Below, piece by piece: positions 20,436-23,940 of a stretch of 23,940 nt of DNA. The stretch lies in the IMG/VR virus record IMGVR_UViG_3300009702_000086, positions 1-23,940 of that record; one strand, given 5' to 3'. Below the pieces are notes generated by a model that saw only the letters and a program-made list of their open reading frames with translations, had not been told where the DNA came from and did not search any database. How positions within the stretch are numbered: position 1 is the first letter of the stretch; each line of letters starts with the position of its first letter. The translations under genes and the position numbers were made by a program. The stretch comes from a virus.

Positions 20436-21770
20436 CTAATAATAAGTGTTAAAAGGATCATCATCTATAATAACTTTATGTTGTTCTGGAAGATGCATTC
20501 TTCTGCGTTTTCCAAATCTACGTAAAGCTAATGACATTAAACGAATTGCATCTGCATAATCAGATGTCCAGTCATGATACGGTTTATCTGTAAAACATTT
20601 TTTCTTTTCATCCCAAGTTTTCTTATATTGTTGCATAGCATCTATTAAACGACGACATTCTTTCATATCATCATTCCAATAAATGCGGGACATCACTGCT
20701 CTTGCAGCTTCAATCCCATCTTCAATTGTAGTTTTAGGTACAATCTTAAAATGAATACCAAGAGTTCTAGCTATTTCTAAACGACTCTTTCCATCATTAA
20801 GGGATCTAACGTTTATATCATGAGGGGCGAAATGATCGTCATAACAATATTCCGCTCTATGATCCTCTCTAAGAACTTTAGCATAGTGAGGAATACCCCG
20901 ATCTGTATTTGCATAACAATCGATTATTCTTATTTCATCATTATTTAATTGAAAAAAGATAATTACTACTTGATCACCAATACCTAAATCCCATGCAGTA
21001 TGTACGTCTAATAAAGGATCAAAAGGTACAGGTCTAATTCTTCCAGAAGCAAGAGCATGGTTCATATATTCTCCGTAATATGAACCAACCAAAGATGCAT
21101 CAAAAGAGCAATAGAACTCTTGCTTTATCATTGCCTCTGGCATCCCCGCTTTTCTCTCTTCTTCTACATCTTCCTCTGTTACAACTTTTGTCTTATCGAT
21201 ATCAAGGGTTTCGGATAACCACCTTTCATTCTTTTTGGCCATCTGAATCATCTGGTATCCATGGTTTCTCCCACGAGGAGTATAGATAAATACCGCCCAA
21301 CCTTTATTCTCTACTAATATAGGTCTGATGTAATCCCAAGCTCTAGGATCTTGTAGAGCGTACTCACTAAAAATAACACCAATAGGATTAGCACCAACCA
21401 GTCGATCCGGATTATCCGACCCCACAACTTGATAGACGCTACCGTTTTTGAACGAAACCCGCATATCAGTGTTATTACGGCCAGCAACAAGATCAGGATG
21501 AAAATGATCAAGAAATTTCCTACCGTCACGAGTCATTCCCTCCCATGCTATCTTTCTCCCTTGGTTATATGTAGGAAATAAATGCCAATAAAGACCAACT
21601 CTTAAGGGAATAGATCGTGATATCCAGTTGATCATTGTTAGATCTTTTCCAGCACGTCGATGCCATACGCAAGCGGCTCTTAATCCTCCTTGTTCTAGAT
21701 ACTTCCATAAGGTTAATTGATAGGGTCGAGGGGTCCACTTATATGGAAGTTTTATTTTTTGTTTAGCCAT
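20436..21770 (-). CDS. terL: Terminase large subunit (DNA packaging ATPase and nuclease), 444 aa
   Basis: The protein has both terminase domains. The N-terminal ATPase shows a deviant Walker A, WHRRAGKDLT (residues 36-45, K42), Walker B with catalytic acid in GVIFSE (131-136), and a coupling-type motif YTPRG (163-167). The C-terminal nuclease shows AWDLGIGD (259-266, D261) and HDWTSDYADAIR (399-410) with acids expected for metal binding. It pumps DNA through the portal and cuts concatemers. The start (MAKQKIKLPYKWTPRPYQLTLW) is typical of the family and is fixed by the 'W-PR-YQ' motif. There is no SD; instead a hairpin ends three bases before the ATG. The gene order terS-terL-portal differs from T7, where terminase is at the other end of the late region. 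Confidence 0.97.
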   Translation of the reverse strand: MAKQKIKLPYKWTPRPYQLTLWKYLEQGGLRAACVWHRRAGKDLTMINWISRSIPLRVGLYWHLFPTYNQGRKIAWEGMTRDGRKFLDHFHPDLVAGRNNTDMRVSFKNGSVYQVVGSDNPDRLVGANPIGVIFSEYALQDPRAWDYIRPILVENKGWAVFIYTPRGRNHGYQMIQMAKKNERWLSETLDIDKTKVVTEEDVEEERKAGMPEAMIKQEFYCSFDASLVGSYYGEYMNHALASGRIRPVPFDPLLDVHTAWDLGIGDQVVIIFFQLNNDEIRIIDCYANTDRGIPHYAKVLREDHRAEYCYDDHFAPHDINVRSLNDGKSRLEIARTLGIHFKIVPKTTIEDGIEAARAVMSRIYWNDDMKECRRLIDAMQQYKKTWDEKKKCFTDKPYHDWTSDYADAIRLMSLALRRFGKRRRMHLPEQHKVIIDDDPFNTYY

Positions 21771-21773
21771 TAT

Positions 21774-21840
21774 GCAGAAATTTTAATTTCGCAAGTAATT
21801 AGAATAATTTAGATACCTTACCGAAATTCGGGGAATTTCG
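21774..21840 (-). promoter_or_regulatory. Two related hairpins in the terS-terL gap
   Basis: A perfect 8-bp stem, CGAAATTC (21822-21829) and GAATTTCG (21833-21840) with a three-base loop, lies just after the terS stop. A second hairpin of 8 bp with one bulged base, made from GCAGAAATT and AATTTCGC, lies at 21774-21792 and ends three bases before the TerL ATG, which lacks an SD. Both share a GAAATT/AATTTC core. Neither is followed by a convincing T-run on the minus strand. They could modulate translation or mark a terminase recognition site. Confidence 0.6.
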
Positions 21841-21844
21841 TCAA

Positions 21845-22117
21845 CTAATTAACAAGGGCTTTTTCCTTTGGTGGTTTCTCTTTACTGAACTGAACGATCT
21901 CTACTCCCATATCTGTAGCGGCATCTGATTTTGCTGGTTCGATCGATTTTAACTTAGGAGCTGCATAACAAGCCAATTCTTTGTGAATTGCTATTTTATT
22001 ACCGGGAGTTATATCTTGATCGCGTGAGAGAAGGATCAGTTCTCGGATAGGATCATAATCCAATTCCCTCATTAACTTAAGAACTTTGAGATTTTTTACC
22101 GTAACTTTATTTGTCAT
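21845..22117 (-). CDS. terS: Terminase small subunit (DNA-recognition), about 90 aa
   Basis: The central part DPIRELILLSRDQDITPGNK followed by KELACYAAPKLKSIEP is the characteristic pattern of small terminases of this kind ('DP..ELI....K...ELA.Y..PKLKSIE'), which select the phage DNA for packaging and bring TerL to it. It lies directly upstream of TerL, as usual. I place the start at the ATG at 22117 (MTNKVTVKNL); the frame can be extended 12 codons to an ATG at 22153 (MYIINELYYNNI), but this extension is AT-rich and unlike protein, and it overlaps the promoter-like sequence. Neither start has an SD. A -10 hexamer six bases ahead of 22117 suggests a leaderless message. Confidence 0.82.
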   Translation of the reverse strand: MTNKVTVKNLKVLKLMRELDYDPIRELILLSRDQDITPGNKIAIHKELACYAAPKLKSIEPAKSDAATDMGVEIVQFSKEKPPKEKALVN

Positions 22118-22123
22118 AATATT

Positions 22124-22152
22124 ATTATAGTATAGTTCATTAATAATGTACA
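22124..22152 (-). promoter_or_regulatory. Candidate sigma70-type late promoter ahead of terS
   Basis: On the minus strand, TGTACA (22152-22147; four of six positions match TTGACA) is separated by exactly 17 bases from TATAAT (22129-22124). The -10 ends six bases before the terS ATG at 22117, so transcription would begin at or within a base or two of the start codon. This would drive the whole structural operon. No experimental support; AT-richness lowers specificity. Confidence 0.5.
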
Positions 22153-22168
22153 TATTTATTTTTATAGG

Positions 22169-22235
22169 GCTATGTGCTGTATATCGAGATCTATCCGATA
22201 TACGGTACTGCTATTTATCACTGCTATGTGCTATA
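22169..22235. promoter_or_regulatory. Divergent control region with inverted and direct repeats
   Basis: This gene-free stretch separates minus-strand terS from the plus-strand early genes. It has a perfect 8-bp inverted repeat, GTATATCG (22179-22186) and CGATATAC (22196-22203), with a nine-base centre, and two 13-base direct repeats GCTATGTGCTGTA (22169-22181) and GCTATGTGCTATA (22223-22235) differing at one base. The repeats straddle the inverted repeat, as operator sites might. No confident plus-strand sigma70 promoter was found in 22154-22382. Confidence 0.5.
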
Positions 22236-22310
22236 GGATTACGTTTACTGTATATATGATAGAGGTTCATGGGTAGAAGGCGGGGGTTGTATGAGGAAAA
22301 GAGAAAACGT

Positions 22311-22334
22311 AAAAAGGCCCCCCAGGGCCCCTTT
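22311..22334 (-). terminator. Terminator-like hairpin (minus strand) in the early leader
   Basis: On the minus strand a GGCCC/GGGCC stem with a four-base loop (22316-22329) is followed immediately by TTTTT (22315-22311). It could stop transcripts coming from the right. On the plus strand the same bases form a stem in the leader before the 28-aa gene, with a second hairpin GAAACGA (22340-22346) and TCGTTTC (22355-22361) next to it. Confidence 0.4.
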
Positions 22335-22382
22335 AACGGGAAACGACTGGGATTTCGTTTCTCAAAGTTAGTGAGGTGTACT

Positions 22383-22469
22383 ATGGTAGATAAGTTTCTT
22401 GAAGTGGTAGGTTGTTTCTTAGTATTCGTTATCATAAGTGTGGTAACGATCTTATTAATGTGTCTATAA
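22383..22469 (+). CDS. Single-pass membrane microprotein, 28 aa
   Basis: A 28-residue frame begins MVDKFLEVVGCFL and is almost wholly hydrophobic after residue 5, ending in LLMCL. It is long enough for one transmembrane helix. An SD (GAGGTG) is positioned six bases from the ATG at 22383. A longer frame from 22269 would add a very basic stretch encoded by the leader hairpins and has a poorly spaced SD, so I do not favour it. It may belong to a small early operon with the 56-aa and 166-aa genes. Function unknown: tiny membrane proteins of phages can be host-inhibiting or exclusion factors, but nothing here shows it. Confidence 0.55.
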   Translation: MVDKFLEVVGCFLVFVIISVVTILLMCL

Positions 22470-22485
22470 TCTTAGGAGTAAGATC

Positions 22486-22656
22486 ATGACTACCAAAGAG
22501 AGATTAAAAGAGTTAAAGGTTAATCAGAGTTGGCATGTGCCAATGAGTATGAAGGAAGCACTGAGATATGCACGAAGGTGCTTATCACAGACTGGATTAT
22601 GGTGGGAGATTAACACCATAAATACTAATGAGTTAAGAATAAGGAGGGTCAAGTGA
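22486..22656 (+). CDS. Small basic early protein, 56 aa
   Basis: A short frame with a clear SD (TTAGGAGTAAGATC ahead of the ATG at 22486), located 16 bases after the microprotein stop. The protein starts MTTKERLKELKVNQSWHVP, continues with a helix SMKEALRYARRCL, and ends in a strand and the basic tail RIRRVK. The general plan, VP...S.R.A....G...R.....L.IRRV, resembles a family of small phage proteins of unknown function that end in a 'R-x-W/R-R-V' motif. The stop overlaps the next start as TGATG, so it is co-translated with the following 166-aa gene. Function is unknown. Confidence 0.72.
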   Translation: MTTKERLKELKVNQSWHVPMSMKEALRYARRCLSQTGLWWEINTINTNELRIRRVK

Positions 22657-23156
22657 TGAAAAAGATCATGAGTAATGAAGATAGTAAGAAGCTGGAAACC
22701 GTTAACAACAATGTTAACGGTAATTTAAATGGGAGTAAGACCATGACTAATGCAGAGATGATGAAGATGATTGAAGACCTCTCTAACAAGGTAGCAGAGT
22801 TAGAGAAGAAGAAGAGTACTGGTAAACAGTCTACTGATGCTCAGACCTTCACTATATCAGGTAAGGTGAAGTTGAGTGATGTAGATGATATAATCATCGA
22901 TGTAGGGGATAAGAAGAAGTTCTTAGCACCACAGGCCAAGCATAGCTTAAGAGCTATCATAAAGTTAAGAGATGCTGCCAGTGGCACCATGACCTTTACT
23001 AGAAAGGAATGGGCTGAGGCTACTGAAGCTGAAGTCGATGATTGGTCTAACAAGTACAGACAGACTGGTGATAGAATAAACCAGTGGTATCACCATCAGA
23101 ATAACGATTATGTCTTCGAAGAGATGACAGTAAATGGCGAACCGTTATTCTCGTAA
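22656..23156 (+). CDS. Early-region protein with coiled-coil N-terminus, 166 aa
   Basis: The N-terminal 70 residues are polar and Asn/Lys-rich, with a short coiled coil (MKMIEDLSNKVAELEKKK). Residues about 75-166 form a compact mixed domain (FTISGKVKLSDVDDIIIDVG, then FTRKEWAEATEAEVDDWSNK and a C-terminal YVFEEMTVNGEPLF). I do not recognise the family. The ATG at 22656 has AGGAGG eight bases upstream and overlaps the previous stop. A second in-frame ATG at 22743 has its own GGGAG, so an N-terminally shortened form is possible; a perfect 9-bp palindromic hairpin (ACCGTTAAC at 22698-22706 with GTTAACGGT at 22713-22721) lies between. The gene is followed by an intrinsic terminator nine bases later. 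It is the largest gene of this early cluster. Confidence 0.85.
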   Translation: MKKIMSNEDSKKLETVNNNVNGNLNGSKTMTNAEMMKMIEDLSNKVAELEKKKSTGKQSTDAQTFTISGKVKLSDVDDIIIDVGDKKKFLAPQAKHSLRAIIKLRDAASGTMTFTRKEWAEATEAEVDDWSNKYRQTGDRINQWYHHQNNDYVFEEMTVNGEPLFS

Positions 23157-23164
23157 CATTAACC

Positions 23165-23191
23165 GGAGGGGCTTCGGCCCCTCCATCTTTT
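23165..23191 (+). terminator. Intrinsic terminator with UUCG tetraloop
   Basis: An 8-bp GC-rich stem, GGAGGGGC (23165-23172) and GCCCCTCC (23177-23184), closed by the very stable TTCG loop, is followed by ATCTTTT. It lies nine bases after the stop of the 166-aa gene and should end its transcript. Any read-through would serve the 27-aa frame, which has its own strong SD. Confidence 0.92.
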
Positions 23192-23206
23192 AAAGGAGGT
23201 GAGATC

Positions 23207-23290
23207 ATGACACATGTTAGAGATGCTTGGTTTATAGCAGGAGTAGGTATTGGGTTTGTACTTGGATGGTTATTAGGATATCTATCATAA
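23207..23290 (+). CDS. Gly-rich membrane microprotein, 27 aa
   Basis: The frame begins MTHVRDAWFIAGVG and continues with a 19-residue hydrophobic stretch containing several regularly spaced glycines (GVGIGFVLGWLLG), which could pack like a GxxxG helix in the membrane. The SD is nearly perfect (AAAGGAGGTGA, spacing about six). It sits directly after the terminator, so it is either a read-through product or served from elsewhere. No family was recognised. Because of its length, the call relies on the SD, the coherent membrane composition, and the tandem arrangement with other small genes. Confidence 0.6.
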   Translation: MTHVRDAWFIAGVGIGFVLGWLLGYLS

Positions 23291-23317
23291 GTTAACAAGG
23301 GTTTATTAAAGGAGGTG

Positions 23318-23347
23318 ATGCCTATGATTGTAGTAATTACATTATAA
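23318..23347 (+). other. Nine-codon frame with a very strong SD
   Basis: After AAAGGAGGTG, a frame MPMIVVITL ends at TAA (23345-23347); an alternative ATG at 23324 sits at better spacing and gives MIVVITL. It is too short to call a gene. A leader peptide or a decayed remnant of a small gene is possible. Confidence 0.25.
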
Positions 23348-23354
23348 GATAAAT

Positions 23355-23465
23355 CAAAGCCCAATGAGTCGGGAGGCCCGGGTTGTGCACTTTCCATGAA
23401 CGATCGACTACCCGCGTGCGCGTGTTATCTGACGATCTCCCAATATCAATTGTTCTGCGATCGTT
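23355..23465. promoter_or_regulatory. GC-rich intergenic island with CGATCG sites
   Basis: Between the nine-codon frame and the next promoter lies a GC-rich stretch that stands out from the AT-rich surroundings. It holds CGGG-AGG-CCCG (a small hairpin around 23370), CGCGTGCGCGTG (23413-23424, alternating pyrimidine-purine), and two CGATCG palindromes (23401-23406 and 23458-23463) embedded in the inverted pair AACGATCG/CGATCGTT. A third CGATCG is within the promoter spacer at 23491-23496. The island may hold operators or a structured RNA. No tRNA or gene was seen. Confidence 0.4.
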
Positions 23466-23476
23466 GATCTTTATAG

Positions 23477-23505
23477 TTTACAATCGGATTCGATCGTAGT
23501 ATAAT
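23477..23505 (+). promoter_or_regulatory. Sigma70-type promoter for the 59-aa gene
   Basis: TTTACA (23477-23482) and TATAAT (23500-23505) are separated by exactly 17 bases, with the -10 matching the consensus fully and the -35 at four of six positions (TTTACA against TTGACA differs at the third base, and the first, second, fourth, fifth and sixth agree, so five of six). The expected start is near 23512 and the gene begins at 23543 after a good SD. The spacer contains CGATCG, which also occurs twice upstream, so repression by binding over the promoter is plausible. Confidence 0.75.
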
Positions 23506-23542
23506 TAATATAAATGAAGATCATTTATCAAAGGAGACGATT

Positions 23543-23722
23543 ATGGAATCTGTACTTAGGCGTAACAAGAATGGGATCTGTGGTAAGAAGTATTGCGAGA
23601 TGTCGTTACATGAAAAGAAACAACAGAAAGAGGCTTACAGGGAATATTATGAAGAAAATCGGAAAGAAGAGAAAAGTTATCTGACCAAAAAGAGAAGTCT
23701 GGAGGCAATATACAAAGAATAG
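23543..23722 (+). CDS. Small highly charged protein, 59 aa
   Basis: A strong SD (AAAGGAGA) and a good sigma70 promoter precede this 59-codon frame. The product starts MESVLRRNKNGICGKKYCEM, with two cysteines five residues apart (13, 18), and then is a highly charged helix rich in Lys, Glu, Arg and Tyr (EKKQQKEAYREYYEENRKEE). A helical nucleic-acid-binding or host-interaction protein is possible, but no family is recognised. It is the rightmost gene, and its own promoter suggests it opens a further early unit, though nothing coding is evident after it in the window. Confidence 0.72.
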   Translation: MESVLRRNKNGICGKKYCEMSLHEKKQQKEAYREYYEENRKEEKSYLTKKRSLEAIYKE

Positions 23723-23940
23723 TGGTAAAGAATACGAAAATATATATAAACACATATATAAACTGTTACATCCACTATCAGTCCATTTTTGGATTTGTTG
23801 ATAATTAAAAAAATAACTCCTAACCCCTTTCTAATCAATGAGTTAAAATTTCTAATAATAACCCCAATATTATTTCTATCTTCTAACACCTTTCTTTACA
23901 AGGGTTTAGAAAATAATATTAGGTTATTATATATATAAAA
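23723..23940. other. Gene-free AT-rich right edge with a long imperfect palindrome
   Basis: No frame with an SD was found here. It is very AT-rich. The main structure is an imperfect inverted repeat with arms 23855-23878 and 23907-23930 (TAATAACC, AATATTATTT and CTA on the left; TAGAAAATAATATT and GGTTATTAT on the right) and a 28-base centre that itself has CCTT/AAGG. Tracts of TA follow at the edge. It may be a terminator, an origin-associated element, or a regulatory region for genes beyond the window. Confidence 0.5.

Follow-up and report, generated by a model that had tools for sequence, protein, structure and literature searches.

A CGATCG-clustered intergenic island of a podovirus as a possible cis-regulatory region with a micro-ORF, a small hairpin and putative operators

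Operator arrays over the sigma-70 promoters of phage regulators consist of repeated palindromes, and iteron-type replication origins carry direct repeats beside AT-rich DNA. At the RNA level, lambda bar represents a two-codon minigene. PMC8708949 describes that minigenes with a Shine-Dalgarno (SD) sequence change mRNA stability and the translation of their neighbours, and that two-codon minigenes are present in the axe-txe and LEE1 leaders.

We analysed an IMG/VR virus record of 23,940 b with a GC content of 0.34, which is called the window throughout. Its source is a podovirus. The head-tail adaptor (phrog_332), the major head protein, the tail protein (phrog_394) and TerL are all encoded on the minus strand of the window, while positions 22269-23722 are packed with small rightward ORFs. 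Two of these (22653-23156 and 23543-23722) flank an island at 23355-23505. A search for DNA relatives in 50,697 phage records yielded 250 records matching at E<=10, none of which covered 80%; among the 20 matches listed, coverage was at most 7%. The island and its surroundings contain the following features.

22653-23156, plus strand: 167-aa ORF belonging to a small phage family, a candidate for DNA binding (ORF list, family alignment, winged-helix-like prediction)
23165-23184, plus strand: terminator-like hairpin, called as terminator-like behind the 167-aa ORF
23308-23319, plus strand: strong SD sequence AAAGGAGGTGAT, identical in the relative L002
23324-23347, plus strand: micro-ORF MIVVITL-stop; none of the other four strong-SD starts in the window opens an ORF of 9 codons or fewer
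23360-23373, plus strand: hairpin CCC-AATGAGTC-GGG with three of the four family pairs
23374-23382, plus strand: conserved AGGCCCGGG behind the hairpin
23401-23406, no strand assigned: CGATCG site 1 (hexamer count)
23413-23424, no strand assigned: alternating tract CGCGTGCGCGTG, read in the sequence
23458-23463, no strand assigned: CGATCG site 2 (hexamer count)
23477-23505, plus strand: sigma-70-like promoter TTTACA-17-TATAAT, a consensus match only (11/12)
23491-23496, no strand assigned: CGATCG site 3 (hexamer count), within the promoter spacer
23543-23722, plus strand: 59-aa ORF (ORF list), putatively served by the promoter

By eye, a 27-aa hydrophobic ORF is seen at 23207-23290; its SD stretch TTAAAGGAGGTGA recurs at the micro-ORF. 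Near terS lies another non-coding stretch of a similar kind, GGCCCCCCAGGGCC...AACGGGAAACGACTGGGATTTCGTTTCTCA (22316-22364), with a counterpart in L002 at about 9536-9488 on the minus strand, both again recognized by eye. Near the end of the record, at 23855-23930, lies an imperfect inverted repeat with 24-nt arms (71%).

An initial annotation of this DNA had drawn attention to CGATCG sites clustered in a GC-rich island and had taken them as a sign of a repressor-operator array or a structured RNA. The hexamer was located where it had been placed, at 23401, 23458 and 23491 and once more at 21940. Four copies in the 23,940-b window compare with an expectation of 0.74 and were reached by 0/100 dinucleotide shuffles. 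Three copies within 100 b did not occur in any of 1000 shuffles of the window, and among the 6-mers with at most five copies CGATCG alone has three in 100 b. This clustering is beyond chance. The inverted AACGATCG/CGATCGTT pair described for the first two sites was found at 23399-23406 and 23458-23465, with extended inverted arms at 23396-23406/23458-23468 (91%), and the alternating tract CGCGTGCGCGTG was present at 23413-23424. By eye, this tract was not seen in the L002 island. With a GC content of 0.47 (23355-23505) or 0.59 (23360-23430), the island is indeed GC-rich compared with the window, but ORF stretches near 570 and 1546 are richer. The tetramer GATC occurs six times in 121 b (23402-23522), six in 125 b being reached by 1/1000 shuffles; with 112 copies in the window as a whole against 85 expected, GATC is over-represented there too. 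A Dam- or pac-like role has been considered for this cluster.

The third CGATCG sits in the 17-b spacer of TTTACA/TATAAT and thereby between the -35 and -10 elements, as had been described. This pair is the best promoter match of 21700-23940, a region in which promoter-like matches as a class are not enriched (6 found, 8.6 expected). Neither the 59-aa ORF behind it nor the 66-aa, 56-aa, 102-aa and 167-aa ORFs matched a PHROGs family at E<=0.001, weak matches appearing only at a laxer limit, and a Pfam scan of the ORFs, including the 59-aa ORF, gave nothing above the cut-off.

A TerL scan with a single protein led to one locus, L002, the nearest relative found, with a TerL 73% identical to that of the window. 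At the matching place, L002 contains three CGATCG in 101 b, which was reached by 0/1000 shuffles of L002, and these lie within three exact 17-bp copies of GCGATTGTCTGCGATCG. Only one further CGATCG (four in total) is present in its 38,739-b record. An even spread of the hexamer, which would speak against a special role of the cluster, is thus found neither in the window nor in L002. The AGGCC motif precedes the first CGATCG at nearly equal distance, by 27 b in the window and by 26 b in L002. In ungapped comparison, the flanks of the window sites did not match the L002 17-mer significantly, the best score being reached by 2451/5000 shuffles. A gapped match, chosen post hoc, was reached by 2/5000 shuffles, and one window site has TCTGCGATCG in common with the 17-mer, with ATTGT one base further out, which was also found post hoc. 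On the matching strand of L002 the only promoter called lies at 8259-8231, and none was called at the island.

Of the 54 TerL-related loci examined, L002 alone has the cluster, which the other 53 lack. Among 125 loci compared, three CGATCG in 110 b were otherwise found only in copies of the window or L002 and in L010, a contig retrieved using the L002 17-mer. In viral contigs this 17-mer was detected in 12 stretches, and three copies occur only in L011, which is the record of L002. The other 11 stretches are single-copy, which we estimate, from the size of the collection, to be about what chance would give. In our reading, the CGATCG part of the island is lineage-specific and the RNA part described below is shared.

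Alignment of the window and L002 islands revealed a common block, AAAGGAGGTGATGCCTATGAT, just upstream, which had not been mentioned in the initial annotation. It reads as a strong SD sequence followed by a micro-ORF that spells MIVVITL (window) or MIV (L002), each with a stop codon, and the spacing between the SD sequence and the ATG is 7 b in both. The island represents, in the window, an element that is more widespread among podoviruses and consists of the SD sequence with the micro-ORF, a small hairpin showing compensatory changes and AGGCCCGGG. At the same genome place, 20 of the 54 TerL-related loci have a version of this element. A profile of three TerL proteins had found 580 relatives, of which the best 80 were kept, and the 54 loci are those of these 80 whose match is preceded by more than 1500 b, plus L002. 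Seven were assigned to class I or a mixed form (L002, L018, L021, L023, L024, L025 and L028) and 13 to class II (L027, L029, L030, L031, L032, L033, L034, L035, L036, L038, L039, L041 and L044). The 20 include the near-identical pairs L021/L023, L030/L031 and L032/L033, and L038/L039 have most of the element in common; L026, with a similar but divergent arrangement, was left out of the count.

The class I form is composed of a stem, a TTAAGT-type loop, a stem and AGGCYNGG (L018, L021, L023, L024 and L025). Further class I loci were recognized by DNA pattern (L099, L101 and L102) or by protein (L106 and L107). The class II form has a micro-ORF, reading M-I-V, M-H, M-D or M-E, and stem-TAYAG-stem with a GGGCG tail. 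The class I hairpin is combined with a micro-ORF in the window, L002 and L028, and in all loci compared the hairpin, an AGGCC-type motif and an upstream micro-ORF come together only at this place in these three. By eye, L028 with its class I hairpin is a close neighbour of the class II loci L027 and L030. We abandoned the idea that the class I hairpin of L021 and its relatives is coding sequence, as the frame is broken in L018 and L024 (by eye). Other conspicuous sequences were noticed as well. L036 and relatives carry two TGTATATAAATCAAT.ACTTAGG blocks about 70 b apart, after the element and before a winged-helix-like gene. About 350-700 b upstream of TerL, L026, L037, L050 and L060 have blocks of very high GC content (66-81% over 100 b), which by eye have a CCCGCAGA-type sequence in common; L092 is also GC-rich and lacks this sequence.

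For counting, a strong-SD start was defined as an SD string 4-9 b from an ATG and a micro-ORF as an ORF of at most 9 codons. One micro-ORF was found among the five strong-SD starts of the window, and the corresponding figures are 1/2 in L002, 1/6 in L033, 1/5 in L036, 1/3 in L041 and 1/5 in L044. L027 and L030 gave 0/8 each, their SD sequences being shorter than the strings sought. Over all loci compared, copies included, 30 of 352 strong-SD starts open micro-ORFs. The micro-ORF comprises seven codons in the window, three in L002 and two to three in 11/11 listed class II loci. Two to three codons in the relatives, and differing ones, argue for a role of ribosome loading itself and not of the peptide. 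The SD and micro-ORF string GAGGTGATGCCTATGATTGTA was also detected in five Clostridia contigs (L121-L125) in unrelated contexts, with a micro-ORF in three of the five, and was set aside.

Folding of the whole island was no better than that of shuffled sequences (z 0.26, plus strand). What stands of the structured RNA proposed at the outset is the short hairpin with compensatory changes just behind the conserved SD sequence and micro-ORF. In the class I hairpin (n=9), three of the four pairs change on both sides and one pair shows all four Watson-Crick types. The fourth pair (14-25) fails in six of the nine class I sequences, the window included. The covariation score of 0.500 was reached by 0/500 shuffles, and with the partner slid by +3, 78% of the cells still pair, without covariation. 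Helix 2 of class II (n=10) is paired in all cells with double changes in three of four pairs, and helix 1 (n=10) in 85% of the cells. We weighed the pair types above the shuffle counts because related sequences can inflate such scores.

Covariance model R1, built with the window, matched only its own members and near-identical copies in 90 sources. R2 (10 class II sequences) and R3 (6 class I sequences) provide a fairer test, the window and L002 being left out of their training. R2 recognized the window island with 18.1 bits as its only match in the window (E 0.0034 there), and within L002 the element was its best match. Across 95 sources (1.15 Mb) the window island came next after the members, near-identical copies and L028, with an E-value of 0.16. 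For R3 the island was the top match in the window (17.0 bits, E 0.0048) and, across the same 95 sources (1.15 Mb), the best outside the training sequences and near-identical copies (E 0.23). The margin is small, as the best unrelated matches reached 15.3 bits (L099, R2) and 15.8 bits (L080, R3). R3 reported neither L002 nor L028. Both models gave no match at E<=10 in the whole of ZP6, MW202742 and MW202510, in 50,000 of the 50,652 b of phiAX1 and in 30,000 of the 65,237 b of MW202615. Rfam scans by E-value, covering 23150-23940 and five relatives, returned only matches far below the gathering scores.

The initial annotation had suggested looking for a small DNA-binding protein. The adjoining 167-aa ORF, 57% identical to its L002 counterpart (170 aa), is the candidate, on the strength of its winged-helix-like prediction. 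The predicted structure (pLDDT 68) shows helix-strand-helix-helix-strand in residues 93-160 and a further short helix, an order that would fit a winged helix. Structural matches were weak, of a size rated as common by the comparison tool, and by title mostly winged helices: Fur with Z 6.2, ORC1 with 5.1 and the OmpR/PhoB type with about 3 to 4.5. The model of a relative from L036 (pLDDT 79) gave weaker, mixed matches (best Z 4.7), and Foldseek returned no match at E<=0.001 for the 167-aa prediction. We did not take such weak structural matches as grounds for assigning a function. No known repressor family was matched. Tblastn of the 167-aa protein against the phage records gave no match at E<=0.1, and a scan of viral contigs with it left none confirmed. 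The 167-aa ORF lies upstream of the element in the window, and in L002 an 84-aa ORF separates its counterpart from the element. In class II loci, ORFs aligning with the 167-aa protein follow directly downstream of the element, 9/13 being flagged by motif; L027, L028, L030 and L044 join the family in a 17-sequence alignment, in which Q, A, Q, I and Y are invariant. For the gene upstream of the element in class I loci (L018, L021, L025, L099 and L103), hhalign did not show homology with this family (probability 0.7%, E 0.083).

Our best reading, to which we assign a rough probability of 0.45, is that this intergenic island, set between two podovirus gene blocks that both run rightward, has a cis-regulatory role, and that an RNA part is joined in it to CGATCG operators over a promoter. 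It starts from observed sequences, their clustering, their recurrence in relatives and the compensatory changes. We infer from these that the region is transcribed and the micro-ORF translated. At the end of the upstream block, the SD-driven micro-ORF followed by the conserved hairpin and AGGCCCGGG would then most likely act as an RNA signal, by which a ribosome would be loaded at the operon end and transcript stability or read-through set. The three CGATCG palindromes, the last within the sigma-70-type promoter, would most likely serve as operators for a phage DNA-binding protein. Once bound, this protein, for which the putative winged-helix 167-aa protein is a candidate, would repress or time the promoter from which the 59-aa ORF and anything behind it would be expressed. 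The operator array of the initial annotation is supported indirectly, because the cluster overlaps the top promoter match, is found again at the corresponding place in L002, there as exact 17-bp repeats, and adjoins the winged-helix-like gene. On the other hand, L002 alone of the 54 loci shares the cluster and its flanks resemble those of the window about as chance would have it without gaps. If true, this reading identifies, at the border of two gene blocks, a control point common to a group of uncultured podoviruses, and supplies an otherwise unannotated family of phage proteins with a target site and a candidate protein.

The main rival to this control-region reading is a replication origin, in which CGATCG or the L002 17-mer would be iterons, the AT-rich stretch behind them would permit strand opening and the winged-helix-like neighbour would be the initiator. 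AT-rich DNA does lie behind the island in the window and L002, L002 has three direct repeats, and the ORC1 winged helix is among the weak structural matches of the 167-aa protein. Moreover, shared 9-mers are in excess in the 600 b from the hairpin in L002, L044, L018, L021, L106 and L024 (0/300 shuffles each). However, no such excess exists in L027 (281/300) and L028 (212/300) and little in L035 (37/300), and part of it is made up of A-tracts and TA runs, as in the window too (3/300). With no initiator family matched and a window record ending 435 b past the promoter, we consider an origin unlikely. An equally improbable alternative is that the RNA part, micro-ORF and hairpin, functions alone and that the CGATCG cluster arose by chance or is lineage-specific, without a regulator. 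That the RNA part occurs in 20/54 loci and the cluster in one, and that the CGATCG flanks of window and L002 are not alike, would be expected from it, but 0/1000 shuffles produced the cluster in each of two phages, where it has the same place and offset.

Termination of transcription was weighed as well, since the hairpin was called terminator-like on the minus strand (23373-23360) and such calls are enriched in 21700-23940 (8 found, 1.1 expected). It could end leftward transcripts, or the region could insulate two operons as a bidirectional stop. In 23355-23505 no plus-strand call was made, and in L002, L024 and L028 the hairpin has, by eye, no T run behind it on either of the two strands, which makes such a role very unlikely. 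We regard it as slightly less probable still that the island is nothing more than a common intergenic spacer, containing a cluster due to chance and what is left of a gene start. The ordinary folding and the weak model scores would suit such a spacer; the clustering in two phages, the compensatory changes and the two to three codons of the micro-ORF in 11 listed relatives would not.

A bolder extension of the control-region reading, which we hold to be doubtful, is that of an uncatalogued class of podovirus regulatory RNAs, in which a strong-SD micro-ORF is coupled to a short hairpin. Its two forms, stem-TTAAGT-type loop-stem-AGGCC and stem-TAYAG-stem-GGGCG, would swap at one genome place near the gene of a small DNA-binding-like family and act as a switch between two gene blocks that is gated by the ribosome, the CGATCG array serving as its lineage-specific DNA operator. 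None of the papers listed in a literature search, PMC8708949 and PMC9004378 among them, reports this phage element, which is no proof of its being unpublished.

Compared with known systems, the locus has no likeness to Rfam 15 families, with no match at the gathering score in the window. Like iteron-type origins, L002 has direct repeats adjoining AT-rich DNA and a winged-helix-like gene; unlike in these, there is no repeat excess in L027 and L028 and the window copies are degenerate. With the operator arrays of phage regulators the island shares repeated palindromes, one of them in a promoter spacer, and an adjoining DNA-binding-like gene, whereas in the window the CGATCG core alone is repeated and the neighbour matches no known repressor family. 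Two-codon minigenes resemble the element in their SD sequence, few codons and stop codon. In contrast to these, the window element closes a gene block and has a conserved hairpin behind it, and 195 b separate the micro-ORF stop from the next listed start.
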